A stretch of 64,000 nucleotides of DNA from an uncultured Anaeromusa sp. GTDB taxonomy: Bacteria > Bacillota > Negativicutes > Anaeromusales > Anaeromusaceae. The notes under the pieces were generated by a model that was given only the letters and a program-made list of their open reading frames with translations, searched no databases and was not told where the DNA came from. A program made the position numbers and the translations under genes. Positions 41,301-60,002 of this stretch are shown here, piece after piece. The DNA is taken from assembly GCF_963668665.1 (NCBI RefSeq), contig NZ_OY764902.1, forward strand, positions 1,677,501 through 1,741,500. The letters are read 5' to 3'. Within the stretch, counting starts at the first letter, position 1, and each line of letters opens with the position of its first letter.

Positions 41301-41479
41301 GTACTTCACTTCTGAAATATGGTCTATTTCTCGGCATTTCCGATAGGAATTAATTAACATTACTAAAAGGACTGAATTTATGTTTAGAAATGGATTAAAT
41401 ATCGGCATGATGCTATCCATTTTGATAATCATGAACTACCGTCTTACCAGGATAGAGTACAATTAAACTCGCAAAAGTG

Positions 41480-42440
41480 AAAAAGGAGAAGCCATCGAAA
41501 GCTCCGAAAAGGTAAGTGCTAGCAAACCCAAAGGAGTGTGTAATCGATGGCTTACCAAAATTCTACCGTACTTTTCGAAAAAATGCTAATGAAATTTGTG
41601 TTGGACGAAGAACCCATGTTATCGATGCTCAAATGGCTCTGTGAACGGCTTATGGAAGCCGAAGTAGAAGGAAAGCTTGGCGCTGAAAAATCTGAGCGTA
41701 GTGAAGACCGCCAAGGATACCGCTCCGGCTATCGGGTTCGCCGCTTCGACACACGAATGGGGACGATGTATTTAATAATACAGAAGGCAAGCGCGACATT
41801 TTGGCTGTTGAACCGATGTATGAAGAGTCAACTGCTACTTACACTAAACTATTTGAAAACCTCAAGGAACGTGGAATAAAGAAGGTTTGGCTAGTGGTAT
41901 CCGACGCTCATAAGGGATTGGTCAAAGCGGCCCGCGAGTCCTTTGTCGGCTGCTCTTGGCAACGATGTAAGGTTCATTTTATGCGTAACATTTTAGGATG
42001 TGTTTCCAGTAGAGATAAGAAATACTTTGCAGAAAAGCTAAAACAGATTTGGCTCCAACTAGACTATGACAGCGCTACAAAATATGCCGATGGGCTCATG
42101 AACGAGTATGAAGGAAAATATCCGCAAGCCATTGCCACCTTGGAAGAAGGGTTGGAAGAATCCCTTCAATTCTTCAATTTCCGGCAAATTGACGCTCGTA
42201 AAATTGCATCCGCCAATCTTCTGGAGCGGCTAAACAGGGAAATACGCCGTCGCACTAAAGTCGTAGGCATTTTCCCAAGTATGGATTCCTACATTCGCCT
42301 AGTGACCAGCTATCTTATCGAATATAGCGAGGACTGGTCTAGCGGGCGTTCTTATATAAATCCTATGCTTATCAACGAAATCCAACAACAGTTGAGAAAA
42401 AGCGCTTAGTTATTTCGGAGTGCGATGGCTTTTGTGAACA
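41480..42440 (+). mobile_element. Remnant of an IS256-family insertion sequence
   Basis: Imperfect inverted ends: AAGCCATCGAAAGCTCCGAA (about 41489) and, complemented, a similar AAGCCATCGCACTCCGAAAT (ending about 42433). The transposase inside carries an internal deletion, so the element is dead unless complemented. Exact ends uncertain. Confidence 0.75.
41547..42409 (+). pseudogene. IS256-family (Mutator-type) transposase with internal deletion and frameshift
   Basis: The N-terminal part (41547 to about 41775) reads normally to RRFDTRMGTMYL. Sequence then jumps, in another frame, to EGKRDILAVEPMYEESTATY and continues to the natural end EIQQQLRKSA at 42409. About 100 codons, including the first catalytic Asp region (DALYEK-type), are missing. 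The second Asp (VVSDAHKGL) and the Glu region (NLLERLNREIRRR) remain. Confidence 0.85.
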
Positions 42441-42455
42441 TTCCTTGTCACTATC

Positions 42456-42644: not shown

Positions 42645-45017
42645 ATGAAGTTTTGCTGGTCGCCAACTAGCTCGATTCGTACGTTAATTGTAAGTATTAT
42701 TGCTGCCCAGATCATTGTTTTTGCAATGCTGATTAGCTGTTTAGCATATTACTGTGGGATGAATGCGGTTCAAGATAATTCGCAGCAAATTTTTTCGATT
42801 GTAAATGATGAGATATCGAAAAATATAACCGCCTATTTAGAAGAGCCTTATCGACTAGAGAAAATACATAAAAATATTATTCGAAATGGACAGATTGATT
42901 TTTCAAATGAGCAACAACGAGATGCATACTTTGTAAGTATGCTGAAAGATTTTCCAAAGGTAACTAATACGTATTTTTCTATGGCGGATGGAAATGAATA
43001 CGGGGCGAGAAAAGAAGATGGCGGAAACATTGTAGTTTGGAATAGCGATCTTGAAAAGAAGACACTTGATTACTACACTTATGAAGAAAAAATCGGGCGA
43101 ATGAATTATATAGAAAGCTTGTTAGATTATGATACACGCCAACGCCCTCCCTTTAAAAAAGGGGCTGAATTGAAAAAACCAGGCTGGACCTCTGTATATG
43201 CTTCTGCTACGGGAAGAGGCCTTGTTGTCACTTCCGTGTACCCGATATATGCCGATGAACACTTGGTAGGGGTATTAGGCAGCTCGCTTTTGTTGAACTG
43301 GATAGATGATTTTTTGAAAGAACTGCAAATCACAGAGCATTCGTCGGTTTATATTGTTGAGCCAACGGGCAAGGTGATTGCTTCTACTAATGATGCCATT
43401 CGACAAAGTAAGTATTGGTATGATGAACTAAAAGAAGAGGATGACCCTCTCTTCTATCAATGCAAGGTGTCAATTCGGGTAAATGGGTTTTTGCTAGAAA
43501 ATATTCATGAAAATCAAAGCTTTAAATTTTATCATAACGGAGAATCGTTTTTGCTTCAGGTTCATGCCGTTGAGGGAGTAAACGGGCTCAATTGGTTAAG
43601 CTTTATCGTTATTCCTGAACGAGATTTAATGTACCAAATGGCTGCTTTTAGTGATAAGTTGCTTGTTATTACGTTGATAGCCTGTTTGCTTGGCAGCGTT
43701 ATTGGTTTTTTTACGGCAGAGTATATTGTTAGGCCCTTGCGAAAAGTAAATCAAAGGACCAGGGAAATTGCGAATGGCGATTTTTCAAGCAGGATAAAGA
43801 TTGCTCGTAATGACGAGGTTGGTGAGCTGGTTCATACCATTAACGAAATGTCTGAGAGTTTAGAACAGTATGTTCGTCGGTTGAATGATGAACGCTTGAG
43901 AATAAAATTGTTAACGTCTGGGTTGGAAAATAGTAATAGTTTTGTCTTGATTTTGAACGAACAACGAACTATCTGGTGGGGCAACAAAGCATTTGAGGCT
44001 TTATCAGGTTATAAAGTTAGTGAACTTTTTGGGAAGAGTGTCTTGATGCTGCTATCGGAAGACAATCTTCCTGAGCTAGTGGAAGAGATTCGAAACTATT
44101 TAATAAATGCCAAAGAGTGGCATGGAGAGGTGCTTGCAAAAAGGAAAAATGGTCGTTCCTATGTTGATGAAATTTCTATTATTCCTATCAGGGATGATGC
44201 CAGTGAAAAGATGCATTATCTCATCGTTGGTCAAGATATAACGGAAAAAGTTAAAGCCAGAGAGGCAATCTTAGAAGCGCAAAAAGCAAAAGTGAAGGCG
44301 GAGCAAGTTTATTTTGTGGGGACAATGGCAGCGGGAATTGCTCACGAAATTAATCAGCCGTTAAACTCTATAAAGGTTGTCTCCAGCGGTTTGCTATATT
44401 TGATTCAACGTGGGGAACAAATTGATGAGAAAGAAGTTATTGACAGTCTGCAAGAGATATCAAATCAGGTAGATCGAATAACAAGCATTATTAAACATCT
44501 TCGATCTTTTGTTAAACGAGGGGAGCGCAAAACAGCTCCTTGTGACATAAATAAGGTAGTTGCGCTGGCGGTGGATTTATTAAAAGAGCGATTGTCTACT
44601 AGTGCTATAAGGGTTGAGCAGAAAATACAGGAAAATATTTCGTTGGTGAATGCCAACATGATTGGCTTGGAAGAAGTCGTTGTTAATGTATTAGTTAATG
44701 CTATCCAAGCGCTAGACACAGTAGATAAAGCTGAAAAAGTAATTTGTATTGAGACGTTTCATCGTGATGCCAACGTCGTGTTGAGGATTAGTGACAATGG
44801 CCCGGGCATTGATGCTTCGATAAAAGAAACCCTCTTTGACTCATTTACGTCAACTAAACAAGGAGACGATAATCTTGGCTTAGGGCTGGCGATAGTAAAT
44901 AATATTATTGCTGCTTATTTAGGAACGATTGAGGTTGCTTCTTCAACTGAGGCAGGAACAACCATCATGATTGCGTTGCCCGCAGTTGAGATGGAAAAAT
45001 TGGAGGAGAAACAATGA
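42645..45017 (+). CDS. Sensor histidine kinase with dCache-like sensor, HAMP and PAS
   Basis: 790 residues. Membrane segments at about 14-38 and 345-368 enclose a large extracytoplasmic Cache-like sensor. HAMP follows (VRPLRKVNQRTREIANGDFS), then PAS (about 430-545), a HisKA domain with H in MAAGIAHEINQPLNSIK and HATPase_c with NVLVNAIQAL, SDNGPGID and LGLGLAIVNNI. NtrB-type kinase core. Overlaps the sigma-54 regulator by 4 bases (ATGA), its obvious partner. The sensor strongly resembles those of the two adenylate cyclases downstream. Confidence 0.94.
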   Translation: MKFCWSPTSSIRTLIVSIIAAQIIVFAMLISCLAYYCGMNAVQDNSQQIFSIVNDEISKNITAYLEEPYRLEKIHKNIIRNGQIDFSNEQQRDAYFVSMLKDFPKVTNTYFSMADGNEYGARKEDGGNIVVWNSDLEKKTLDYYTYEEKIGRMNYIESLLDYDTRQRPPFKKGAELKKPGWTSVYASATGRGLVVTSVYPIYADEHLVGVLGSSLLLNWIDDFLKELQITEHSSVYIVEPTGKVIASTNDAIRQSKYWYDELKEEDDPLFYQCKVSIRVNGFLLENIHENQSFKFYHNGESFLLQVHAVEGVNGLNWLSFIVIPERDLMYQMAAFSDKLLVITLIACLLGSVIGFFTAEYIVRPLRKVNQRTREIANGDFSSRIKIARNDEVGELVHTINEMSESLEQYVRRLNDERLRIKLLTSGLENSNSFVLILNEQRTIWWGNKAFEALSGYKVSELFGKSVLMLLSEDNLPELVEEIRNYLINAKEWHGEVLAKRKNGRSYVDEISIIPIRDDASEKMHYLIVGQDITEKVKAREAILEAQKAKVKAEQVYFVGTMAAGIAHEINQPLNSIKVVSSGLLYLIQRGEQIDEKEVIDSLQEISNQVDRITSIIKHLRSFVKRGERKTAPCDINKVVALAVDLLKERLSTSAIRVEQKIQENISLVNANMIGLEEVVVNVLVNAIQALDTVDKAEKVICIETFHRDANVVLRISDNGPGIDASIKETLFDSFTSTKQGDDNLGLGLAIVNNIIAAYLGTIEVASSTEAGTTIMIALPAVEMEKLEEKQ

Positions 45018-46489
45018 GAATTTTACTGGTGGATGATGAAGAGCGTAGTCGGCAGGCTATGCTTTGGATCTTGAAAAAGCTTAATCACGTCGTGACGGAG
45101 TGTGCTGATGGTGAGGAGGCTTTGCGTGTATATTCGCCGCACGAATATGAAATGGTCTTATCTGATTTGAAAATGCCGGTTCTTTCAGGGATTGAGTTGG
45201 CAATACAAATAAAAAAAATACCGGATAGTTGGAAAACGGATGTGGTGCTATTTACCGGGCATGGTGATATGAAATCGGTAGTAGAAGCGCTGCGGGCGGG
45301 TGTATATGATTATCTTGAAAAACCAGTAAATGTGGAAGAGCTGACGGTAGTTATTGAGCGAGTAGCAGAACACCAGGCACTGCTTAGGGAAAACAAAGTT
45401 TTGACGGAACGTTTTGATGAAGAGGTAGATGCCGCAACAGAGGAAACAAAGCGTGAACTTAGCACGATGAAACGCTTGGTTGCAGAAAGCATTATGGGAA
45501 AAGTAGGCATTTACTCTGAAAAAATGAAAAAAATTATGCAACAAGCGTCACTTTTAAATGGGGAACGTTCTATCCCTGTTTTGATCGAGGGGGAAACTGG
45601 AACAGGCAAGGAAATTGTCGCCAAGATGATTCACTATGGAGTTCAAGAAGATAGCGTCTTTGAAGAAGCGTTTGTAGATATAAATTGCGCTGCCTTAACT
45701 TCCAGTCTTTTTGAAAGTGAATTATTTGGGTATGGAGCCGGTGCTTTTACTGGGAGTTTAGGCCGAGGAGCGAAAGGGAAGTTTGACTTAGCTAATAAAG
45801 GAACGCTATTTTTAGATGAGATTGGTGAATTGCCGCTGGAATTACAAGGAAAACTCTTGCGCGTTCTCCAAGAAAAAGAATTTTTTCGCGTTGGCGGGTT
45901 AAAAAAAATACCAACCGATGTACGCATTATTTGTGCGACCAATGTTCCGCTTGAAAAAAGTGTTGCCGATGGTAAATTCCGCAAGGATTTATACTATCGA
46001 TTGAAAGTAGCTCATATTTCGATGCCGCCGCTTCGGGAACGGACGGAGGAAATTGTTCCGCTGGCCAATATGTTTTTGCAGCAATATTCAAAGCAAAAGA
46101 AAAAGGAATTTATAAGGGTTGCCGCTCAAACAGAAAGCCTATTAGAAGCCTACTCATGGCCGGGTAATATTCGTGAGCTTCAAAATTTAATCGAATATGC
46201 AACATTTGCGTATAATGATCAAGAATTACTTCCCTCCCATGTAGACGGTTTTATTCAGTTGCATGAGAGCAGACCTCAAAAGATCGAGGAAGGAAGCGTT
46301 GCGTCAAAGCAAACCTTCTTGGAACTTCCTTTTCCGCAAAATGGATATAACCTAAAGGATTATACGGAAGATATTATTTTGCAAGTCTTAAGTCTGTTTG
46401 ACCAAAATCAATCGAAAACAGCACAATACTTAGGAATTTCACGCCGGGCGTTATCGTATCGTTTAGAAGAAATGAGAAACAGAAAATAA
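45014..46489 (+). CDS. NtrC-type sigma-54-dependent response regulator
   Basis: 491 residues. Receiver with DDEE (7-10), phosphoacceptor in MVLSDLKMPVLSG (about D53) and LEKPVN; AAA+ domain with Walker A GETGTGKE, the sigma-54 contact loop GAFTGS and Walker B TLFLDEIGELP; arginine-finger region LYYRLKV; C-terminal Fis-type helix-turn-helix NQSKTAQYLGISRRALSYRL. Activates sigma-54 promoters; the best candidate in the window is at 54553-54568. Confidence 0.96.
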   Translation: MRILLVDDEERSRQAMLWILKKLNHVVTECADGEEALRVYSPHEYEMVLSDLKMPVLSGIELAIQIKKIPDSWKTDVVLFTGHGDMKSVVEALRAGVYDYLEKPVNVEELTVVIERVAEHQALLRENKVLTERFDEEVDAATEETKRELSTMKRLVAESIMGKVGIYSEKMKKIMQQASLLNGERSIPVLIEGETGTGKEIVAKMIHYGVQEDSVFEEAFVDINCAALTSSLFESELFGYGAGAFTGSLGRGAKGKFDLANKGTLFLDEIGELPLELQGKLLRVLQEKEFFRVGGLKKIPTDVRIICATNVPLEKSVADGKFRKDLYYRLKVAHISMPPLRERTEEIVPLANMFLQQYSKQKKKEFIRVAAQTESLLEAYSWPGNIRELQNLIEYATFAYNDQELLPSHVDGFIQLHESRPQKIEEGSVASKQTFLELPFPQNGYNLKDYTEDIILQVLSLFDQNQSKTAQYLGISRRALSYRLEEMRNRK

Positions 46490-46657
46490 ATTTGAAAAAT
46501 AGCAGGCTATTAGCATAAATGTGCTTAGCTGGCAAAGACAGGAAGGAATATACGGGCATTTGAAAGAAATATACAAAAATGGAAATTAACGTATTGCGCC
46601 TTCGAAAATAGAATTTAAGTGCTAATGTCCGCAAACTGGAACCAATGGAGGTTAGAG

Positions 46658-48808
46658 ATGAAAGTCACTATAGCTGACTCTATAAAAAAAAGCTCCCTTC
46701 ATCGGTTGCTTGCAGTGGCGTTTGTCGGAGAAATTTTGTTATTTGCGGTGTTAGCCGCATTTCTTTCTTATACGAGCGGTCTTAAAACCACAACAGAAAA
46801 TGCTCGTCAAATTGCGAGTGTAGCTAGTGATGATGTTACCAAAATGGTGTTGGATTACGTGGCAGAACCCTATCAGCTGGAACAGATTAATCGACATATG
46901 ATTTTGAACAAGGAATTGAACTATTCAGATCAAGCGCAAAGGGATAGATACTTTGTTGAAATACTTAAAGCTTTTCCACAGGTAACTAACACGGCGCTTG
47001 TGTTGGCTAACGGTAATGAGTATGGCGTTCGCCGGGAAGATAACGGCAGTTTTCTTGTTTGGAGCGGTGATCAAGAGCGGCAGGTTCTTGATTATTTCAG
47101 GTATGACGAGACACTCGGACGGACTGAATATGTAAAAAGTTTGACCAATTATAATCCCATAAAGCGACCATCGTATTTAAAAGCGACTTCGATGCGGAAC
47201 CCAGGCTGGACAGATGTGTATTATTCTGCCACTGGGAGGGGATTAGTAATTACTAAAATTTGCCCGCTGTATATCGGGAATGAAGAGCTGCTTGGAGTTC
47301 ATAGTTGCTCTATATTGTTAAATAAGTTTAATGGCTTTTTGCAATCATTAATGCTGACGGAAAATGCCGTAGCTTTTATTGTCTCAAATAGTGACGAGGT
47401 TATAGCTTCTTCTGATAAAAAGGGAAATTCAGTGAGGAAAGCAACCGTACTGACTCGCGTGAATGAGTATCCTTTGCTGGAACAAGGGTTAAAAACGCTA
47501 AAAGAAAGAGAGTCAGTAGAACCTAAGACTAACGGAGCAGAAGATATATCGTTTTCTTTTGCCGGAGAAAAATTTTATATGCACATGGCTCCGATTACAG
47601 GGGCTCATGGATTGCAATGGACCAACGTGGTTATTATACCGGAAAATGACTTGCTCTATCCGCTATATGCGTTACTGAAGAAGGTAATAGGGAGTACGGT
47701 AATTGCCTGTGTGCTGGCGTTGGTTGCTGGCTTGCTGGCTGCGCGCTATATTGTTAGGCCGATCGTCAAGGTTGAGGAAGCAGCTAAAAAAATAACCGAA
47801 GGCGATTTTTCCAGTAAAATTAAGGTGAAGTATCATGACGAAATAGGCGAACTGTCTAATGCTGTAAACATGATGTCTGAAAAATTGAAGTGTCAATTAG
47901 AGCTAAAACGAAAAGCGACGAGTGTAGAAAAGAAGCTGAGAGAACACGGCGCGGCAATGCATCAGGTTATAGGCAGGTTTGTGCCGTATGGATTTCTTGA
48001 TTTGCTTGATAAAAATAATATTTCAGAAATCGTACCAGGTGATCGTATCGAGAAAGAAATTACTGTTTTATTTACGGACATTCGCTCTTTTACAAAAATT
48101 TCCGAAGGAATGAGCAGTGTGGAACTTTTTGAATTCGTAAATCGATACCTTGATTTGGCGGTAGATGTGATTACCCAAAACAATGGCTTTGTGGATAAAT
48201 TTATTGGTGATGCAATAATGGCGTTGTTTCCTGGCGGTAGTGAAGATGCATTGCAGGCCATTGTTGGAATTCGTCAAGAAATACTGCGACGGGGGTTGCT
48301 TTATAAGGGAGAGCCGTTAAAAATTGGGGCGGGCATTCATTTCGGTAATGTTATGCTGGGTACGGTGGGGACATATACGCGTATGGATACTACGGTATTA
48401 GGCGATTCTGTTAATTTAGCCTCGCGGATTGAGAGCGCAACTAAAGTATACGGGATTGATGTTTTAATTTCGGAACCGGCGTATTACCAGTTGAAAAATC
48501 CTGGGAATTTTTATATCAGGGAGATTGATACGGTAAAAGTTAAGGGCAAGAGCCGCCCCATCAAATTGTACGAAGTATTTGATTGTGATTCTGAAGAACT
48601 AAAGCTATGCAAAAAAAAGATAGAAGTCTTGTTTAAAGAAGGATTGCAGTTGTATAAGGAAGGCGTGTTTGAACAGGCGGAGGAAATTTTTAGGCAATGC
48701 CAGGAACAGTGTCCTGAAGATCAATTGCTGACGGTATATGTTAAACGGTGCGGAACGATGAGGCGAGTTCCGCCGGGCCCTGACTGGCAAGGAATCAGTG
48801 GGATTTAA
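46658..48808 (+). CDS. Class III adenylate cyclase with dCache-like sensor and HAMP (first copy)
   Basis: 716 residues. Two membrane segments (about 17-38 and 340-362) around a sensor region, HAMP (IVRPIVKVEEAAKKITEGDF), then the cyclase domain (about 435-640). First metal Asp in VLFTDIRSFT, second in DKFIGDAIMALF with the substrate Lys; Thr in TTVLGDSVN and the transition-state N and R in NLASRIE. The Lys/Thr pair is typical of ATP-specific class IIIb cyclases. A short helical TPR-like tail ends in RVPPGPDWQGISGI. GGAGG selects ATG 46658 rather than upstream in-frame starts. Confidence 0.93.
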   Translation: MKVTIADSIKKSSLHRLLAVAFVGEILLFAVLAAFLSYTSGLKTTTENARQIASVASDDVTKMVLDYVAEPYQLEQINRHMILNKELNYSDQAQRDRYFVEILKAFPQVTNTALVLANGNEYGVRREDNGSFLVWSGDQERQVLDYFRYDETLGRTEYVKSLTNYNPIKRPSYLKATSMRNPGWTDVYYSATGRGLVITKICPLYIGNEELLGVHSCSILLNKFNGFLQSLMLTENAVAFIVSNSDEVIASSDKKGNSVRKATVLTRVNEYPLLEQGLKTLKERESVEPKTNGAEDISFSFAGEKFYMHMAPITGAHGLQWTNVVIIPENDLLYPLYALLKKVIGSTVIACVLALVAGLLAARYIVRPIVKVEEAAKKITEGDFSSKIKVKYHDEIGELSNAVNMMSEKLKCQLELKRKATSVEKKLREHGAAMHQVIGRFVPYGFLDLLDKNNISEIVPGDRIEKEITVLFTDIRSFTKISEGMSSVELFEFVNRYLDLAVDVITQNNGFVDKFIGDAIMALFPGGSEDALQAIVGIRQEILRRGLLYKGEPLKIGAGIHFGNVMLGTVGTYTRMDTTVLGDSVNLASRIESATKVYGIDVLISEPAYYQLKNPGNFYIREIDTVKVKGKSRPIKLYEVFDCDSEELKLCKKKIEVLFKEGLQLYKEGVFEQAEEIFRQCQEQCPEDQLLTVYVKRCGTMRRVPPGPDWQGISGI

Positions 48809-48827
48809 ATACAAGGAGGTTTATAAG

Positions 48828-49289
48828 TTGAGAACAAAACATATTATTGAGATCTTGCGTAAAATATCATTTTTCGAAGGCTTAGATGATAGGACGCTGG
48901 AATTCATTGCCTCGGTTGGTGAAGGGGTAAATGTTAAAGCTGGTGATGTTTTATTTCAAGAAGGCGCAGCAGGTGATAGCGTATACCTGATTATTAAAGG
49001 TAAGATCGAGGTATATAAAACCGACCAAGATGGTTATCGTTCCGTTTTGGCAACATTGGGTACAGCCGATATTCTGGGAGAAATGGCTTTGCTTGATGAA
49101 AGTCCGCGCTCGGCTTCGGCTCAGGCAGTAGAAGATAGTATATTAATTTCATTAAAAAGAATGGAGTTTCAACTTTTTTTACAAAGTAATTTTGCGGTGG
49201 TCCTAAAGTTGTTAAGCACGTTGAGCCGTAAATTGCGTGATGTTAATGATAAGTTGACGGAGCGAAACCGCAGAGGCTATTTTCCCTGA
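48828..49289 (+). CDS. Stand-alone cyclic-nucleotide-binding protein
   Basis: 153 residues: one CRP/cNMP-type beta-roll and C-helix, without helix-turn-helix DNA-binding domain. The phosphate-binding cassette ILGEMALLDESPRSASAQAV keeps the Glu and Arg that bind cyclic nucleotides. AAGGAGG precedes TTG 48828 with 8-base spacing; the frame extends to GTG 48798 inside the cyclase gene. Lying directly after an adenylate cyclase, it probably is a cAMP receptor that acts on a protein partner. Confidence 0.9.
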   Translation: MRTKHIIEILRKISFFEGLDDRTLEFIASVGEGVNVKAGDVLFQEGAAGDSVYLIIKGKIEVYKTDQDGYRSVLATLGTADILGEMALLDESPRSASAQAVEDSILISLKRMEFQLFLQSNFAVVLKLLSTLSRKLRDVNDKLTERNRRGYFP

Positions 49290-49335
49290 ACAAGAAGTGT
49301 CGCCTAGGAAGATAATTTATGGAGGAATGATGAAA

Positions 49336-49740
49336 ATGGCATTTATGGAATGGTGCGATAAGTATATGCTGGGGCTTAAAGAGGTAGATGAACAACATGA
49401 ACAGCTCTTTAACATAGTCAATCAACTGCATCAAGCGGTGGTTGAGGGGGCGGATCAGAGTGTAGTTGGCGCAATTTTAGACGATTTGATTGAGTATACG
49501 GTAGAACATTTTGAAACAGAAGAACGTTTGTTTTTGGCCCAGGAGTATCCGCGATATGAAGAGCATAAAAAAGAACATGATCTTTTAACGCAACAAGCCC
49601 TGGAGATACAGGAGAAATTTCGAGCAAAAGAGATTACGGTAACGTTTGAGTTGTTAGATTTTTTGAGTGACTGGTTAAAAAACCACACCACGGATTCTGA
49701 CTTAAAATACGCGCAATTCTCAACGATTAGCAAGGGCTAG
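49336..49740 (+). CDS. Bacteriohemerythrin
   Basis: About 134 residues, single domain. All seven di-iron ligands can be placed: H in VDEQHEQL, H and E in VEHFETEE, two H in EEHKKEH, and H and D in NHTTDSD. Binds oxygen (or senses it, or NO). GGAGG at 49321; ATG 49336 gives the usual MAF-EW start, and ATGs at 49327 and 49330 are alternatives. Sits in the middle of the cAMP gene set. Confidence 0.93.
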   Translation: MAFMEWCDKYMLGLKEVDEQHEQLFNIVNQLHQAVVEGADQSVVGAILDDLIEYTVEHFETEERLFLAQEYPRYEEHKKEHDLLTQQALEIQEKFRAKEITVTFELLDFLSDWLKNHTTDSDLKYAQFSTISKG

Positions 49741-49773
49741 ATAAAATAGTTGTCTTCATTAGGGAGGCTTGTA

Positions 49774-50658
49774 ATGGAATGTAAAGTGAAAATTTGGGGT
49801 TCGCGTGGTTCGCGCGCTGTGCCAGGTCGGGATACGTTGGTATATGGCGGTAATACTGCTTGCGTAGAAGTGCGTTTCGGTCAGCATCAGATGATCATTG
49901 ATGCTGGCAGCGGTATTTGTGAACTTATGAAAGATATATCTTTTCTGGGACAAGCCAAAAAGGCAGACTTGTTTATTTCCCATATGCACTGGGATCATAT
50001 CTTAGGGTTGCCCTTTTTCAAGCCTTTGTACCAAAGTGATAATGTTTTTTGCATTCATGGTGTCAATGGCCGGTCCTATGATTTTGAAAGCGCCTTGCGC
50101 AACGTGATGCGGGACCCAAACTTTCCGATTAGTTTCGATGATTTAAAAAGTCGGAATATCATTAAGACGCATGAGCCGGGTGCGTCGTTTAATTTGCAAG
50201 ATGTATGGAAGGAAGTAACCGAAGGAGCATATCGGACTCCGGATATTCGAGTAGATACAATGCCGAATCAGCATCCTAACGGAGGAAGTTTTTACAAGTT
50301 TTCCTGTGACGGGCGTACGGTTTGTTATGCATCCGATACGGAATGCGCCCCGGAGAAACCGGAATTTATTGATTCGCTGGTACGGTTTGTTCAAGGGGTT
50401 GATTTGCTAATTATGGACGCTAATTATACTCGTGATGAATACGAAGGTCGTGTGGGCGGATTTTCCAAAAAAGGCTGGGGCCATGCGTGTTGGGAAGACT
50501 GCGTGATGGTGGCTCAAAGAGCGGATGTGAAAAAACTGTGCCTTTTTCATCATGATGCCGCCCGGACAGATCGGGAGCAGGCCTTGATTGAAAAAGCCGC
50601 ACAATTGAAGTTTGGGGCGACAATCGCCGCCAGGGAAGGGCTGGAACTGGTATTGTGA
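49774..50658 (+). CDS. Metallo-beta-lactamase-fold hydrolase
   Basis: 294 residues. Zinc motif HMHWDH (about 75-80), later metal-binding segments NQHPNG, ASDTEC and the final FHHD. N-terminus VKIWGSRGSRAVPG resembles the family of small MBL phosphodiesterases. The reaction is unknown. In this setting, hydrolysis of a cyclic nucleotide is a reasonable but untested idea. AGGGAGG precedes ATG 49774. Overlaps the next gene by 4 bases (GTGA). Confidence 0.88.
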   Translation: MECKVKIWGSRGSRAVPGRDTLVYGGNTACVEVRFGQHQMIIDAGSGICELMKDISFLGQAKKADLFISHMHWDHILGLPFFKPLYQSDNVFCIHGVNGRSYDFESALRNVMRDPNFPISFDDLKSRNIIKTHEPGASFNLQDVWKEVTEGAYRTPDIRVDTMPNQHPNGGSFYKFSCDGRTVCYASDTECAPEKPEFIDSLVRFVQGVDLLIMDANYTRDEYEGRVGGFSKKGWGHACWEDCVMVAQRADVKKLCLFHHDAARTDREQALIEKAAQLKFGATIAAREGLELVL

Positions 50659-52190
50659 GTGTTTATTCGCCGGGAGTAGTTGCTGCGGTGCGCGAACTAC
50701 TGGATATAGGAATTGCTCTTTCCGCCGAAAAAAACTACAAAATACTGCTGGAACGTATTTTGAGTGAATCTCGCCGAATTACTGCTTGTGATGCCGGTAC
50801 ACTATATCTAGTAAAGTCGGGAAAACTAAGCTTTGAAATCATCCAAAATGATACGTTGAATATTCACCAGGGAGGGCAAGGAGAACCGATTGAGTTGCCT
50901 CCCGTTGATATTGCGGAAACGGCTGCAGCCGGTTTTTGCGCTTTGCATAATACGGTGATTAATATTCCTGATGTTTATAAACCTGAAATTAGTGGTATTG
51001 ATTTTACGGGTCCGCGACGCTATGATGCGCTTACTGGGTACCATACCATTTCTATGATGGTGATTCCGCTGGAGAACCATGAGGGAGCCATTATCGGGGT
51101 TTTACAGTTGCTAAATGCTCAGGACGAAGAAGGGGCCGTGATTCCGTTTGCTGCGTATTTGGAACCGGTAGTTCGTGCAATAGCCTCTCAAGCTGCAGTT
51201 GCGATAAGCAATATGCGTTATGTCGAAGAAATTGACAACATGCTGCAGTCTTTTGTGAGGGTTATTTCGATTGCGATTGATGAACGTAGTTCTTACAATG
51301 CCAACCATACTCGCAACATGGCCACGCTTACGGGTAAGTTTGCAAATTACATTAAAACACAACAAGACAAAGCGTTGGCTTTGGAATTATCCGATAAAGA
51401 TGTAGAACAGTTAATTATGGCTGCTTGGCTCCATGATATTGGCAAGATTGCAGTGCCGCTTAGTATCATGGATAAGCCAAGCCGCTTGGGGCAACGGTAT
51501 GAATTGGTGAAAAACAGGCTGTTTGCAATTTGCGAACAGCGTAAAGTGAAAGCTATTAAAGAGATGCTACAGCAAGAAAAACCGTTGAGAACAAAAGATA
51601 GTATTGTTGATTTATGGGACCGTGTAGCCGCGATTCAAAAAGAGATGGATCATATCAACGAATTTGTTGATAGGGTGAATGGTCCGAATTGTTTTATTGA
51701 CGACCCAATTCGGGAGGAAATTCGTGAAATAGCGGACCGTACCTGGTTGGGGACGTCGGGGTTTGAAGAAAATTGGCTACTGCCGGAAGAGGTAGAAGCC
51801 TTGCAAGTTCCTCGTGGAACCTTGACTGACTTGGAACGGCGAGTCATGGAGAACCATGTAGGGATTGCTCAAAGAATGCTGGAGCAAATCCCGTTTGGCG
51901 AGAAATATGTAAAGGTTCCTGAGTGGGCATGCGCTCATCATGAATTCCTTGATGGCAGCGGTTATCCTCAAAATTTGCACGCAGATGAACTACCCTTGCC
52001 GGTAAGGATTTTAACAATTATGGACATTTATGATGCACTGACTGCTCAAGACAGGCCATACAAGAAAGCGCTGCCTAAGGAAAGGGCTTTTGCTATTATG
52101 GAAGAAATGGCGAATGCTGAAAAACTAGATGGTGAATTACTTCGCTTATTTAAACAGAGCCGAATCTGGGAAGAAAAGCAATACGTATGA
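50655..52190 (+). CDS. GAF-HD-GYP phosphodiesterase
   Basis: 511 residues from GTG 50655. GAF domain about 15-190, short linker helix, then a split HD-GYP region: AAWLHDIGKIAVPLSIMDKP (about 255-275) and AHHEFLDGSGYPQNL (about 420). The spacing between HD and GYP is longer than in the other HD-GYP protein of the window because of an inserted helical stretch (about 285-385). Family activity is c-di-GMP hydrolysis; GAF could bind a cyclic nucleotide. Confidence 0.92.
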   Translation: MSVYSPGVVAAVRELLDIGIALSAEKNYKILLERILSESRRITACDAGTLYLVKSGKLSFEIIQNDTLNIHQGGQGEPIELPPVDIAETAAAGFCALHNTVINIPDVYKPEISGIDFTGPRRYDALTGYHTISMMVIPLENHEGAIIGVLQLLNAQDEEGAVIPFAAYLEPVVRAIASQAAVAISNMRYVEEIDNMLQSFVRVISIAIDERSSYNANHTRNMATLTGKFANYIKTQQDKALALELSDKDVEQLIMAAWLHDIGKIAVPLSIMDKPSRLGQRYELVKNRLFAICEQRKVKAIKEMLQQEKPLRTKDSIVDLWDRVAAIQKEMDHINEFVDRVNGPNCFIDDPIREEIREIADRTWLGTSGFEENWLLPEEVEALQVPRGTLTDLERRVMENHVGIAQRMLEQIPFGEKYVKVPEWACAHHEFLDGSGYPQNLHADELPLPVRILTIMDIYDALTAQDRPYKKALPKERAFAIMEEMANAEKLDGELLRLFKQSRIWEEKQYV

Positions 52191-52223
52191 CTAAGTAAAA
52201 ACGCTATTATAATGGAGGGCTTC

Positions 52224-54368
52224 ATGCAGCATAATTTGGCAAGATTTCTAAGACAAAGGGCGGTAAGAAGCTATATTATGTTGATGTTTGCTGGCGGTAT
52301 AATAGTGTTTTTGGCCATACTTAGTTATGGGCTGTATGCCAGTGAATTGCAAACGATAGAAGACAGCACACGGCAAGTCTCTGTTATTGTGAATAATGAC
52401 ATTGAAACAAGAGTCTCAAATTATTTAGAAGAGTCGTATCAACTAGAAAAAATTAGTAAAAGTGTGTTTGTTGGCCGCCAAATTGATATGTTGGATCAGG
52501 TTCAGAGAGATAGATACTTTGTGGAAATGCTTAAAATTTTTAAGCGAGTTAACAATACGTACATTGTTTTAGCAACTGGTGAACAATATGGCGCCAGTCG
52601 AGATGGAGATAGAGGATTTTTCGTTTGGGATTATGACCGTGACAAGGAGAAATTAGAGTATTATCTCTATGATGAACAACAAGGCCGTCAAGGGAAGGTA
52701 AAAAGTATACTTGGATATAATCCGCTCCAGCGGCCGCCTTATATAAAAGCAGTTGAGACGAAGCAACAAGGATGGACCAATGTCTATCCTTCGATATCTG
52801 GCGGGGGAGTCATTGTTGCAAAAACATGTCCGGTATATTCGGAGGATAATCAATTGCTGGCGGTACTTATGAGTGCTGTTGATTTAGATTGGTTTAATAA
52901 ATTTTTGGATTCCTTATCAATTACCGAGCACTCAATGGTATTTATTTTGTCAAAGGATGCAGAAATTATTGCAGCTTCTAATGCGCCGACAGTAAGCGGC
53001 GAAAAAAGGACTAGCTTGCTTCATTCCCGTGATATCCCGGTATTGAACCAGGGCTTGAGGGAGTTGAAAGAAAAAGAGGTCACACTCGAACTGCTTCAAC
53101 AAGGGGTAGAATGTAAGTTTCAGTTTGAAGGAGAAACTTTTTTGTTGTATATGAATCCCATACAAGGAGATATGCAGTGGCGCAGTGCAATTCTGATCCC
53201 GGAGAAAGACTTGCGAGAACGCTTAAGTGCTTTTTCTAACCAATTGAACATTTTAATGGTTATTGGCAGCTTTTTCGCATTGATTATAGGGGCAACTGTT
53301 GCCCGATATAGTATTGACCCGATCGTAAAGGCTACCAAAGTCGCAAAGGAAATTGCAGAAGGAGACTTTAGCAATAAAATAGCGATAGTTCGTCAGGACG
53401 AAGTCGGGGAAATGGTTCGAAGGATCGATGAAATGTCAACTAAGGTCAAGGAACAATTTGATTTTGAAAGAGAAGCGGCAGAGAATGAAAAAAAATTACG
53501 CCAACAGGAAGAAGAAATAACAAAGGCTGTAGCGAGTTTTGTGCCGTATGCATTCTTAGATATATTAGGAAAACATAGTATCCTAGAAATTTCTCCTGGG
53601 GATCATGTCGAAAAAGAAATCACCATTTTATTTAGTGACATCCGTTCTTTTACAAAAATTTCGGAAAAAATGGAAAATGCGGAGCTGTTTACATTTATTA
53701 ACTGTTATTTAGAGTTGGCTATAGACGTAATCACGGCTAACAATGGCTTTATTGACAAATTTATTGGTGATGCAATTATGGTGCTTTTTCCTAGTGCTAG
53801 CGATGATGCATTGCGGGCGATTATTGAACTGCGTAAAAAATTGCCTCAGGGTTGTTGGCAGCATGAGGAAGAACCCTTGCTTATTGGCGCGGGTATTCAT
53901 TTTGGCAGTGTGACGTTAGGAACGGTTGGAACACTCACGCGTATGGAGACTACTGTTCTTGGAGATTCTGTAAATTTAGCCGCGCGTTTGGAAAGCGCAA
54001 CTAAGGTGTATGGTATCGATATTTTGATTTCAGAACCGGTATATTGTCGGTTATTGCATCCCGAAGCATTTTATATACGAGAAATTGATACGGTAAAAGT
54101 TAAAGGGAAAAATCAACCAATTAAATTGTATGAAGTATTTGACGGTGATTCGGAGGAATTAAGACAGGCTAAAAAGGAAAATACCCCTCTGTTTATGACG
54201 GGACTGGAATTATATAAAAATGGCGATTTTGTACAAGCGGAAAAAACTTTTCGGAAATGCCAGGAATGTTGCCCGGAGGATAAATTATTGCTTGTATATA
54301 TTAAGCGTTGTTGTACCTTGCAGCGGGTTCCGCCAGGGCCTGATTGGAAAGGGATAAGCGGTATATAA
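52224..54368 (+). CDS. Class III adenylate cyclase with dCache-like sensor and HAMP (second copy)
   Basis: 714 residues with the same plan as the cyclase at 46658: two membrane segments, Cache-like sensor, HAMP, cyclase domain (about 440-640) and tail ending RVPPGPDWKGISGI. Metal Asp in LFSDIRSFT and DKFIGDAIMVLF, substrate Lys and Thr (DKFIGD, TTVLGD), transition-state residues in NLAARLE. All catalytic residues intact. GGAGGG lies 4 bases before ATG 52224; ATG 52212 is an alternative. Last gene before a strong terminator. Confidence 0.93.
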   Translation: MQHNLARFLRQRAVRSYIMLMFAGGIIVFLAILSYGLYASELQTIEDSTRQVSVIVNNDIETRVSNYLEESYQLEKISKSVFVGRQIDMLDQVQRDRYFVEMLKIFKRVNNTYIVLATGEQYGASRDGDRGFFVWDYDRDKEKLEYYLYDEQQGRQGKVKSILGYNPLQRPPYIKAVETKQQGWTNVYPSISGGGVIVAKTCPVYSEDNQLLAVLMSAVDLDWFNKFLDSLSITEHSMVFILSKDAEIIAASNAPTVSGEKRTSLLHSRDIPVLNQGLRELKEKEVTLELLQQGVECKFQFEGETFLLYMNPIQGDMQWRSAILIPEKDLRERLSAFSNQLNILMVIGSFFALIIGATVARYSIDPIVKATKVAKEIAEGDFSNKIAIVRQDEVGEMVRRIDEMSTKVKEQFDFEREAAENEKKLRQQEEEITKAVASFVPYAFLDILGKHSILEISPGDHVEKEITILFSDIRSFTKISEKMENAELFTFINCYLELAIDVITANNGFIDKFIGDAIMVLFPSASDDALRAIIELRKKLPQGCWQHEEEPLLIGAGIHFGSVTLGTVGTLTRMETTVLGDSVNLAARLESATKVYGIDILISEPVYCRLLHPEAFYIREIDTVKVKGKNQPIKLYEVFDGDSEELRQAKKENTPLFMTGLELYKNGDFVQAEKTFRKCQECCPEDKLLLVYIKRCCTLQRVPPGPDWKGISGI

Positions 54369-54392: not shown

Positions 54393-54444
54393 AAAGAGAT
54401 CGACAAAAACTTCTCATGTGGGAAGTTTTTGTCGATCTCTTTTT
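54393..54444 (+). terminator. Terminator of the cAMP-module operon
   Basis: AAGAGATCGACAAAAACTTC and its complement around TCATGTG, followed by TTTTTA. It is a 20-bp near-perfect stem. Confidence 0.95.
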
Positions 54445-54552: not shown

Positions 54553-54568
54553 TGGCATGGGATTTGCT
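54553..54568 (+). promoter_or_regulatory. Sigma-54 (-24/-12) promoter
   Basis: TGGCAT-GGGAT-TTGCT, with GG and GC separated by exactly 10 bases, matching the TGGCAC-N5-TTGCW consensus. It is 58 bases upstream of the EAL-HDOD start and after the terminator. The only NtrC-type activator in the window is at 45014-46489. Confidence 0.82.
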
Positions 54569-57679: not shown

Positions 57680-58261
57680 ATGAGGAAAGAGTATGTTTGT
57701 ATGCGAAAAAAGGAAGTTTATGATGCTGAAAATTCGGTGTTTGCATATGAGCTAACAACGTATACCGGTCCGCCGTTTGAAATTAATGCTTTGTGGAAAA
57801 CAGAAAATAGCGGCCTTGTAAAATTGTTTCTGGAATTCGGATTTAATAGCTGTTTTGCAGGCAAGAGAGTGATTATTAAAGTGGGTGATCTCTTAAATGA
57901 AATGGGGGAAGTATTAAAATATCCGCCGGAAAAAGTTTTAGTGACGTGTTGTGAATTTAAATCAGTATGTAAAAAAATGTTGTTAGCGTGTAAGCTCTTG
58001 AAGAACAAAGGGTATTTGATTGTTGTTGATCAATATGCTTTGAAGCGAGGACATTCAAAATTATTAAAGTTAGCGGACTTTGTTAGGGTTGATTTTCAAA
58101 CAGCGTCTCTAGTTCAAATTTTCGCAGCTCCTCAGAAGGCTCAAAAATATTCATTGCAGTGTATAGCAGTGAATTTAGATACTGCAGATCGTGTTAATTT
58201 GGCGAAACACTGTAATTATCAATATTTTCATGGGGAGAACGTTGACTCTTTTTTGTATTGA
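57680..58261 (+). CDS. Stand-alone degenerate EAL-domain protein
   Basis: 193 residues. It aligns by eye with the EAL half of the protein at 54626: VFAYELTTYTG with VVAYELLFRG, VLVTCCEFKSV with the VEATEEIITCC region, NKGYLIVVDQYAL with EKGYSIVLDDFVF, LADFVRVDFQTAS with LADIIKVDYRATT, and CNYQYFHGENV with FAYFQGYFF. The Asp pair is DQ, the Lys is Arg and Gln is His, so catalysis is very unlikely. No HDOD follows. 22 bases after the chemoreceptor gene. Confidence 0.75.
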   Translation: MRKEYVCMRKKEVYDAENSVFAYELTTYTGPPFEINALWKTENSGLVKLFLEFGFNSCFAGKRVIIKVGDLLNEMGEVLKYPPEKVLVTCCEFKSVCKKMLLACKLLKNKGYLIVVDQYALKRGHSKLLKLADFVRVDFQTASLVQIFAAPQKAQKYSLQCIAVNLDTADRVNLAKHCNYQYFHGENVDSFLY

Positions 58262-58295: not shown

Positions 58296-59660
58296 TTGTT
58301 TGGTATGGATCGTATAGAGTCATCTTTCGTGGCGCCTAAAGAGGAGCTTGTTCAAGAATCAAATAAAGAGCTGCTGCAAAGAGTTAGTACTACGTTCTTT
58401 TTTCTGCACGAAGGCGTCATCACCACAGACGCAGCAGGAAAAATCCTTTTAATGAACAAAAGTGCTGAGAACTTAACCGGGTGGTCAAGCGAAGAAGCAT
58501 ATGATAAAGAATTTGCAGAAGTTTTTCATTTGCGCCATGCAGCGGCAAGAGAAAGTACGATCAATCCAGTAAAGGAGGTATTGGAAACAGGCAAATTAAG
58601 CCATGCTCCTGCTGATATTGTGTTAATCGATAAAAATGGCACGGAACGATATATCGCCGGGACTTGCGTTCCTGCAATCGGAAAAAGTCGTGCAGTGACG
58701 GGAGTAATCATCAATTTTCGCGATATTACAACAGCCTGGCAGAAGCAGAAACACAAGGAGTATTTAAGTCACCGCGATGTTTTGACGGGAGCCTTTAATC
58801 GTTTCTTTTTTCAAAAAAGAATTGAAGAAGAAATATCCTGGTCAGAGAGATACCAGGAACCGTTAAGCATGATGATGCTTGATTTGGATTATTTCAAGCG
58901 AATTAATGATACATGGGGCCATCCGGTCGGAGATCTGGTACTAAAAGAACTGGCTCAACTTATTCGAGGTTTGATTCGAAAAACGGATTTTTTGGTTCGC
59001 TTAGGAGGAGAGGAATTTATAATCGTTATGCCGCAGACGAATGGCGATGACGTTGCCAGAGCGGCAGAAAAGATCCGAATTCTTTTGGAGCAGCATCGGT
59101 ATCCGATAGTAGGACAAGTTACAGTTAGTATTGGCGTGGCTGAACATATTGAGGGGGAAACATTTGATAGCTGGTATGGGCGGGTAGACGGTGCTATGTA
59201 TCAAGCTAAAGACAACGGGCGGAATTGTGTTAAAATTGCAGACAAGCAAGAACTCCGTTCGGTTGTAGCTGATCCTCCGAAGTGGCAGGAAGAGTGGGAA
59301 AGTGGTCACAACGGTATTGATAAACAGCATCGTGAATTGATTGAGATGGGAAAACTGCTTTATGATTTATCAATTCAGGGTATTGAATCCAAGACCGTAT
59401 TAAAGCAACTAGACCGAGTGTTGAAGTATCTTGCAGAGCATATTGAGTATGAAGAGAAATTGTTGCTCCAAATAGGCTATCCCGGTTTTTTGCGACACAA
59501 AGAAACTCATGATAGATTGCTTGAAATTGCATTTAACCTTAGAGAAACCTATACCCAACGAAGGCTGAGACCCGCAATTTTTTTCTCGTTTCTTATTGAT
59601 GACTTTATTTTTGGACATATTTTGCAAGAGGATAATGATTACTTCCCTTACGTGAAATGA
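58296..59660 (+). CDS. PAS-GGDEF diguanylate cyclase with C-terminal hemerythrin domain
   Basis: 454 residues. PAS about 28-150, GGDEF about 160-320 with active motif RLGGEEF and an inhibitory I-site RKTD exactly five residues before it, then a hemerythrin domain (about 330-454) with all ligands: H in DKQHREL, HIEYEE, RHKETH and HILQED. It makes c-di-GMP from GTP under likely control of oxygen or redox state at the di-iron site. TTG 58296 follows GGAGAAAGG; ATG 58305 is an alternative start. Confidence 0.93.
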   Translation: MFGMDRIESSFVAPKEELVQESNKELLQRVSTTFFFLHEGVITTDAAGKILLMNKSAENLTGWSSEEAYDKEFAEVFHLRHAAARESTINPVKEVLETGKLSHAPADIVLIDKNGTERYIAGTCVPAIGKSRAVTGVIINFRDITTAWQKQKHKEYLSHRDVLTGAFNRFFFQKRIEEEISWSERYQEPLSMMMLDLDYFKRINDTWGHPVGDLVLKELAQLIRGLIRKTDFLVRLGGEEFIIVMPQTNGDDVARAAEKIRILLEQHRYPIVGQVTVSIGVAEHIEGETFDSWYGRVDGAMYQAKDNGRNCVKIADKQELRSVVADPPKWQEEWESGHNGIDKQHRELIEMGKLLYDLSIQGIESKTVLKQLDRVLKYLAEHIEYEEKLLLQIGYPGFLRHKETHDRLLEIAFNLRETYTQRRLRPAIFFSFLIDDFIFGHILQEDNDYFPYVK

Positions 59661-60002
59661 AAATGAGCTTACTACGGGTAAGCAAAAAGTTCATTGGACA
59701 AGTCTTTTTTGCTAATTAGTCGTGTGGCTACTCGACGTTGGCAAAGGGGCTGGTTCTAATGAACTTTTACTTTTTATTCGTCTTTAGAATTTGGCAGGAG
59801 TGGATTCAGCAAATTATTCAACCATAGTCTATAGCGGAAATCTCCAGAGCGGTATGGCCGCAGCTAATGTATGGAGGTAACCTCTATTTTGGAAATAAAA
59901 AGAGGATTGCCTGGTGACAGAGAGAATGTAATCCATTAGGAAATTATGGGATTTGCATACTGACTCAGGATTGGAAATTGTATGCTAACAAAGGAGGAAA
60001 CT
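59661..60002. other. Intergenic gap, mostly unassigned
   Basis: AAAAAGTTCATT (59684-59695) and AATGAACTTTT (59758-59768) could form a long-loop terminator followed by ACTTTTTATT. The remaining 230 bases hold no gene, known riboswitch or family A repeat that I can see. Confidence 0.4.

Follow-up and report, generated by a model that had tools for sequence, protein, structure and literature searches.

Gene content of the cassette

The window analysed here is a 64,000-nucleotide stretch of an uncultured Anaeromusa sp. (contig NZ_OY764902.1). Within positions 46658-54368, six intact open reading frames locate on the + strand and form a putative cyclic AMP (cAMP) signalling cassette, which may also act on cyclic di-GMP (c-di-GMP). 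The gene order is CYC1, CNB, HR, MBL, GAF-HD-GYP and CYC2, with intergenic distances of 19, 37, 33, -4 and 33 bases. The initial annotation had described six same-strand genes with their motifs at this position, and the open reading frame, Pfam and motif checks agree with it. The genome carrying the window (3.48 Mb) is referred to as G000, and three other genomes of the genus as G001-G003.

46658..48808, + strand: CYC1, membrane sensor (dCache-like)-HAMP-class III cyclase with a TPR-like tail
48828..49289, + strand: CNB, stand-alone cyclic-nucleotide-binding protein with an intact phosphate cassette and no output domain recognised; TTG start
49327..49740, + strand: HR, bacteriohemerythrin with seven di-iron ligands
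49774..50658, + strand: MBL, Lactamase_B_2 hydrolase, candidate atypical class-II cAMP phosphodiesterase; ATG at 49774
50655..52190, + strand: GAF-HD-GYP protein, candidate cAMP-gated c-di-GMP phosphodiesterase; missing from the G003 cassette
52224..54368, + strand: CYC2, dCache-HAMP-class III cyclase with a TPR-like tail; ATG at 52224 behind GGAGG

CYC1 starts at 46658 with an ATG preceded by GGAGG, and CNB starts at 48828 with TTG; both starts are plausible. Searches with MBL used 49777-50655 and those with CYC2 used 52227 onward, each one codon short.

In Pfam, CYC2 consists of dCache_1, HAMP and Guanylate_cyc (PF00211). CYC1 shows HAMP and Guanylate_cyc, while its dCache_1 match (31.6 bits) stays below the cut-off of 45. 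PF00211 is above cut-off in both proteins, which are 50% identical to each other and end in a TPR-like stretch (seen by eye; Pfam reported no TPR). The sensors of CYC1, CYC2 and the upstream histidine kinase align over approximately 400 residues at about 38-40% identity. A motif search located two metal-binding Asp (LF-T/S-DIR and FIGD), the Lys of DKFIGD and the Thr of TTVLGD in both cyclases, so that the Lys/Thr substrate pair reported earlier is indeed present. By aligning CYC1 with CyaB (3r5g) and considering the motifs of both proteins, we found the residue set of class III adenylate cyclases, namely the metal Asp, the Lys/Thr pair, Asn and Arg. CYC1 and CYC2 are predicted to make cAMP from ATP. 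A PF00211 search of G000 gave two matches, both of them the cassette cyclases, and no other was recognised; across the genus, G003 likewise has two matches, and G001 and G002 have none. The cassette, which has the only PF00211 cyclases of its genome, looks able to make, detect and perhaps degrade cAMP, as was first proposed.

CNB has cNMP_binding (PF00027, 88.7 bits) as its sole Pfam match, and the C-terminal DNA-binding domain of CRP/FNR regulators was not found by Pfam. The phosphate-binding cassette, where Glu and Arg serve in nucleotide binding, is present with both residues (GEMALLDESPRSA; motif search). Against structures, CNB matches 6hq3 with 55.2 bits, the related CNB domain of Bd1971. 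A single-sequence search detected a close relative inside the genus in G003 only. In a phylum sample of 398 genomes, 65 genomes (G000 counted in) hold CNB relatives at E 1e-17, and among the matches listed (70 besides CNB's own) the open frames are all at least 217 residues long. On plasmids, CNB matched 410 records, two of which reach 80% coverage of CNB.

Two more CNB-related proteins of G000 (loci L005 and L009) are of CRP/FNR type with HTH_Crp_2, and inspection by eye revealed that the Arg of the phosphate cassette is missing in both. L005 and L009 probably bind no cAMP. The count of two comes from the single-sequence CNB search rather than a PF00027 family search, and further paralogues may exist. 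Because both CRP-like paralogues found are without this Arg, a protein-level rather than CRP-type cAMP output is plausible, which is what the initial annotation had suggested from the free receptor.

HR is recognised by Pfam as Hemerythrin and by NF033749 with 141.8 bits (cut-off 84). All seven ligands that bacteriohemerythrins use to hold the di-iron site are present (H24, H61/E65, H80/H84, H120/D125, numbered from 49327).

MBL belongs to Lactamase_B_2 (PF12706) and carries the motifs SHMHWDH, QHP, SDTE and FHHD. It thereby combines PF12706 with [T/S]HXHXDH, the pairing that marks atypical class-II phosphodiesterases; the motif does not discriminate, because an aligned RNase Z carries such a motif too. 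The curated RNase Z model TIGR02651 scores MBL at 72.1 bits, below its cut-off of 292.95. The match of the MBL profile to YhfI (6kns) is a single stretch that covers positions 12-251 of the 281 in the profile, and lower matches include Apyc1 (23.8 bits), PhnP and a 3',5'-cyclic-nucleotide phosphodiesterase 1. YhfI and a second MBL enzyme of B. subtilis prefer cAMP and cGMP (PMC9117128), and Rv1339, YhfI and CpdA of C. glutamicum are designated atypical class-II phosphodiesterases (PMC9293780). MBL shares with these three the PF12706 fold and the [T/S]HXHXDH motif and appears to be a candidate member of the class. It differs in scoring below the NCBIfam equivalog cut-off and in its additional closeness to RNase Z.

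The GAF-HD-GYP protein gives GAF, HD and HD_5 in Pfam and contains the HD-GYP motifs HDIGK and HHEFLDGSGYP; a GAF domain fused to HD-GYP is the architecture of the Tlr0485 type. When its GAF domain alone was compared with the PDB, the best match was 1ykd (an adenylate cyclase GAF pair, 49.9 bits), followed by the GAF domains of PDE5, PDE2 and PDE10. We take 1ykd to be the cAMP-bound CyaB2. The match is no proof of the ligand, because 4mcw, presumably a GAF-HD-GYP protein, is also among the matches. The GAF stretch around NIPDVY, DF-S/T-GP and TGYxT is kept in relatives, and the HD-GYP protein is 44-52% identical to 15 relatives, L133 being the nearest. The 16-row GAF alignment omits L087 and L125, in which HD-GYP is split over two frames; both are counted as present elsewhere.

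A class III cyclase next to a CNB protein is also reminiscent of Pycsar, and the cassette could be a phage defence in which CNB is the effector and MBL removes the signal like Apyc1. PycC of PADLOC matches the two cyclases (82.8 and 81.6 bits), CNB matches the CNB part of PADLOC PycTIR (64 bits), and MBL enzymes resembling Apyc1 break down the signals of Pycsar (PMC9117128). By Pfam, however, CNB is cNMP_binding only, with no TIR, and the cyclases possess a sensor, HAMP and the Lys/Thr adenylate-type pair. CNB effectors of Pycsar carry a TIR or transmembrane domain, and PADLOC lists TIR effectors; no killing effector domain is recognised in the cassette. Moreover, the GAF-HD-GYP protein and HR have no PADLOC match at E 0.01, MBL gives a weak RTasMBL match (13.6 bits), and the fit of its profile to YhfI (52.5 bits) exceeds that to Apyc1. 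A Pfam scan (not PADLOC) of ten neighbouring proteins showed none that looks phage- or defence-like, though one is a transposase. We regard a defence role as very improbable.

The cassette is present or absent as a unit at two places

Comparing the genomes of the genus revealed where the cassette begins and ends. The neighbouring features involved are as follows.

42645..45017, + strand: histidine kinase, a neighbour outside the movable unit, with a sensor like both cyclase sensors
45014..46489, + strand: sigma-54-type response regulator, whose end is the empty site in G002 and G003
46490..46657, + strand: cassette 5' region, common with the G003 cassette from 46511 onward
54393..54441, + strand: intrinsic terminator, the response regulator's own, here downstream of CYC2

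In G002, a genome assigned to the same species, the sequence of window positions 42804-46487 (kinase and regulator) is followed by 17 bases and then by 54392 onward; the cassette is missing, and the terminator, an EAL-HDOD gene and an MCP gene come past the empty site. The empty site is found in G003 as well, where the cassette lies instead between window positions 59667 and 59883, after a PAS-GGDEF-hemerythrin gene. PF00211 cyclases and close matches to CNB, MBL or HD-GYP are all missing from G001 and G002, and HD-GYP relatives were found in none of G001-G003 at E 1e-20. The cassette is thus a removable and relocatable unit.

Since the sequence from 46511 on is common with the G003 cassette, the 5' edge lies near 46490-46657. 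No transposase and no clear target repeat were found at the edges. One aligned block of G003 shares its last 13 bases with the start of the cassette block, and in G000 approximately 25 bases behind the regulator stop look by eye like the stretch before EAL-HDOD; either could have been left by the event or be coincidental. A Mutator-family transposase piece is present at 41801-42409, approximately 4 kb upstream of the cassette, and the DNA of this area (~41450-42455) matches elsewhere in all four genus genomes.

Between G000 and G003, the five shared cassette genes show ratios of nonsynonymous to synonymous substitution (dN/dS) of 0.07-0.18 and are therefore under constraint. A recent transfer into G000 was considered and rejected: compared with G003, per-gene dS ranges over 0.16-0.27 for cassette genes and 0.19-0.42 for flanking genes. 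As the cassette dS resembles that of the flanks, the cassette looks about as old as they are, and G002 probably lost it. On the other hand, the cassette lies in an AT-rich stretch of approximately 22 kb (38001-60000; 37-46% GC vs 45-57% before), together with the kinase, EAL-HDOD, MCP and GGDEF-hemerythrin genes, which leaves room for an older acquisition. Among the matches listed, G001 has no close match to the kinase-regulator or EAL-HDOD DNA. A 193-residue protein with no Pfam match (57680-58258), 87% identical in G003, is encoded between the MCP and GGDEF-hemerythrin genes.

It had been stated that no terminator occurs in the cassette until 54393. The strong terminator there is real. In G002 and G003, however, it immediately follows the response regulator, to which it therefore belongs, and it defines no cassette operon. 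The terminator scan listed no terminator-like site between the regulator and CYC1, so the cassette transcript may begin at the kinase (42645). Weaker terminator-like sites occur inside the cassette genes, and the 16 sites of the scanned region do not exceed the mean of 12.1 (sd 4.0) for shuffled sequence. A sigma-54 promoter for the cassette was rejected: the pattern matched 31 times vs 38.27 expected, and never in the gap that precedes CYC1. We notice a sigma-54-like -24/-12 site with one mismatch at 54553-54568. It more likely serves EAL-HDOD, because it precedes that gene and persists in G002 and G003; it is also a possible target of the response regulator at 45014-46489.

Recurrence of the core in distant genomes

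MBL was used as the marker for a neighbourhood survey; the class and phylum-sample counts below include G000. In the class, MBL relatives at E 1e-30 occur in 30 of 380 genomes, namely G000, G003 and 28 genomes of one family (referred to as f20), and 27 of these 28 also have a cyclase within the short MBL locus. Wider stretches were obtained for 17 of the 28, and every one shows relatives of an LPP20-like gene, followed by a CHASE2-cyclase, MBL and a GAF-GGDEF protein. Pfam identified the f20 domains in two cyclases and two GAF-GGDEF proteins; in the remainder they were assigned by similarity to those. The GAF domain of the one f20 protein tried (L061) likewise has 1ykd as its best PDB match (75.8 bits), followed by GAF domains of cGMP-specific phosphodiesterases. 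This operon-like run possibly turns a surface signal into cAMP and c-di-GMP. The leading gene (L059-L075) has weak similarity to the LPP20 lipoprotein; two were scanned, and both fall below the Pfam cut-off.

In the phylum sample, 10 of 398 genomes match MBL at E 1e-20, and GAF-HD-GYP lies beside MBL in five of the nine besides G000. The order of G394, a distant one, was surveyed at E 1e-25. MBL is present in 18 of its 63 genomes, with GAF-HD-GYP directly behind it in 16; of the remaining two, L126 has a CHASE2-type cyclase in that place instead, and the other ends in its contig. Across the survey as a whole, L135 (G793), which ends in the MBL gene, and L023, at a contig start, are counted as misses. 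MBL, GAF-HD-GYP and a cyclase follow each other in the order of the window in L133 and L134 of this order and in L087 (G664) of another class. CHASE2 was identified by Pfam in the L087 cyclase and by similarity in those of L133 and L134. A search of 46 genomes for the class of L087 gave one match, again G664.

A 44-row tree of MBL sequences places the window in a group (100/99) together with 17 of the 18 G394-order rows, five others and two rhizobial rows. All 17 f20 rows stand apart from this group, but one HD-GYP-bearing locus, L134, is found on their side of the tree. The branch leading to the window is long, and where exactly the window belongs is uncertain. MBL relatives were also found in 246 plasmid records, 142 of Rhizobium and 81 of Sinorhizobium. 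Two rhizobial plasmid records were opened: a CHASE2-cyclase adjoins MBL in L095, and in L094 a cyclase, not domain-scanned, lies approximately 3.4 kb off.

CYC2 relatives are present in 46 of 380 class genomes at E 1e-15, and outside the genus they match the sensor or the catalytic part. A contig scan with CYC1 gave four loci, in none of which another cassette gene was recognised. Across the genus, the class, the phylum sample and plasmids, the complete six-gene set was seen in G000 only. Co-occurrence across relatives had been proposed as a check of the system: the six-gene set is not conserved, while a core of MBL, GAF enzyme and cyclase recurs.

The C-termini of CYC1 and CYC2 (at 48808 and 54368) share a near-identical tail, VPPGPDWxGISGI. 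L040, the best relative in the contig scan, ends in PPEPNWEGIS; PPxxNWxG-like tails are present in L040 and L095 and absent from the C-termini printed for L041, L089 and L133.

The survey bears on whether the c-di-GMP enzyme belongs to the circuit at all. The cyclases, CNB and MBL could form a cAMP circuit of their own, with the GAF-HD-GYP protein a separate c-di-GMP enzyme that senses something else and is merely co-located. Genes for c-di-GMP signalling and taxis abound in the region (EAL-HDOD, MCP, PAS-GGDEF-hemerythrin), the G003 cassette does without HD-GYP, and the window GAF has an incomplete NKFDE motif; all three would fit such a bystander. It is harder to reconcile with the distant genomes, where the MBL-HD-GYP adjacency and the order MBL, HD-GYP, cyclase recur, and where in f20 a GAF-GGDEF protein holds the same place behind MBL. 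Mere co-location seems unlikely to us, though less so than the other alternatives.

A further possibility is that the cassette responds to oxygen, with HR supplying or sensing O2 and gating the cyclases or HD-GYP. The ligands of HR are intact. A PAS-GGDEF-hemerythrin fusion, likely a hemerythrin-controlled diguanylate cyclase, is encoded nearby at 58296-59660, and the G003 cassette stands directly behind that gene. Fused hemerythrins govern c-di-GMP enzymes in Bhr-DGC and Bhr-HD-GYP (PMC8846402). HR is a separate protein, however, and a single-sequence HR search recognised no hemerythrin in the fetched stretches around MBL relatives. We consider this quite unlikely. The coupling to oxygen put forward in the initial annotation finds nothing in its favour beyond the gene position.

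A proposed cAMP circuit and its relation to known systems

On the basis of gene content and motifs, we propose with moderate confidence that the cassette forms a relocatable and optional cAMP module. It would act mainly through c-di-GMP hydrolysis by the GAF-HD-GYP protein, with an additional cAMP receptor lacking an output domain. CYC1 and CYC2 would act as membrane receptors that make cAMP when a ligand is present, their sensors being paralogous to that of the neighbouring kinase. By analogy to Tlr0485, cAMP would act on the GAF domain and thus gate the hydrolysis of c-di-GMP. It would also act on CNB, which may work by protein contact or as a buffer, and MBL would end the signal by hydrolysing cAMP. 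G003, without HD-GYP, would keep the CNB branch only. Judging from the relatives seen, MBL, GAF-HD-GYP and cyclase may be an old linkage group, to which this lineage added CYC1, CNB and HR. The coupling of cAMP to c-di-GMP suggested at first is strengthened by the cyclic-nucleotide-like GAF domain and by the recurrent grouping of MBL, a GAF-type c-di-GMP enzyme and a cyclase.

Several observations weigh against this proposal. The G003 cassette passes from window 50662 over three bases to 52188, and since it has no HD-GYP, HD-GYP cannot be the sole output there. Neither an HD-GYP nor a cyclase was recognised near four (L085, L088, L090, L092) of the nine MBL relatives that the phylum sample gave, and in the G394 order a cyclase was seen in only six of 18 fetched stretches. 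As for the GAF domain, 1ykd is outscored by 5z7c, 4mcw and 4r8z once the entire HD-GYP protein serves as query. GAF domains that bind cyclic nucleotides carry the NKFDE motif, which is not known to be required in this family; N-A replaces N-K in all 16 aligned GAF rows, and the window GAF is also without the D. MBL reaches 36.6 bits with the NCBIfam cyclic-nucleotide phosphodiesterase model NF041851, far below the cut-off of 400, and its profile fits RNase Z (75 bits) better than YhfI (52.5 bits).

We further put forward, more tentatively, a general scheme. A three-part relay of a class III cyclase, an MBL cAMP phosphodiesterase and a cAMP-gated GAF c-di-GMP enzyme may turn signals into a change of c-di-GMP across one phylum. 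Its sign would be reversible, with GAF-GGDEF making c-di-GMP in one family and GAF-HD-GYP destroying it in others. In the lineage of the window, the relay would have gained a second cyclase, an output-less receptor, a hemerythrin and a kinase-type sensor in place of CHASE2, and become relocatable, so as to constitute the entire class III cAMP system of its host.

All parts of the cassette belong to known kinds, and c-di-GMP enzymes under cAMP control have been described before. According to PMC8846402, Tlr0485 of Thermosynechococcus is a cAMP-activated GAF-HD-GYP c-di-GMP phosphodiesterase; the portion of PMC5871770 available on Tlr0485 does not mention cAMP activation. Tlr0485 and the window protein are likened by their GAF and HD-GYP architecture, not by sequence comparison, and unlike in Tlr0485, the window gene adjoins MBL and cyclase genes. 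Lcd1 of Leptospira, a cAMP-activated GAF-GGDEF diguanylate cyclase (PMC8846402), resembles the f20 GAF-GGDEF protein in architecture, not compared by sequence; the f20 protein sits in a cyclase-MBL operon, and the output of Lcd1, synthesis, is opposite to that of the window HD-GYP. Bd1971 of Bdellovibrio, a cNMP_binding-EAL phosphodiesterase, is described in PMC6717892 and PMC8846402 as active only with cAMP or cGMP. There too, cAMP controls c-di-GMP hydrolysis, and the CNB domain is related to the window CNB. In Bd1971 this domain is fused to EAL, whereas the window CNB is separate and the window hydrolase has a GAF domain. The linkage of cyclase, MBL and GAF enzyme with either sign, and its relocatable six-gene form, were not met within the portions of the literature covered by a limited search.

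If the proposal is true, direct cAMP control of c-di-GMP enzymes would extend beyond a few isolated proteins to a portable, operon-encoded circuit, for which the signal-ending enzyme is also predicted. G000 and G002, a same-species pair differing by the whole circuit, would then help to test its function. A cAMP receptor without a recognised output domain, in a genome with CRP-like proteins that lack the cAMP Arg, also raises the question of a non-transcriptional cAMP output.

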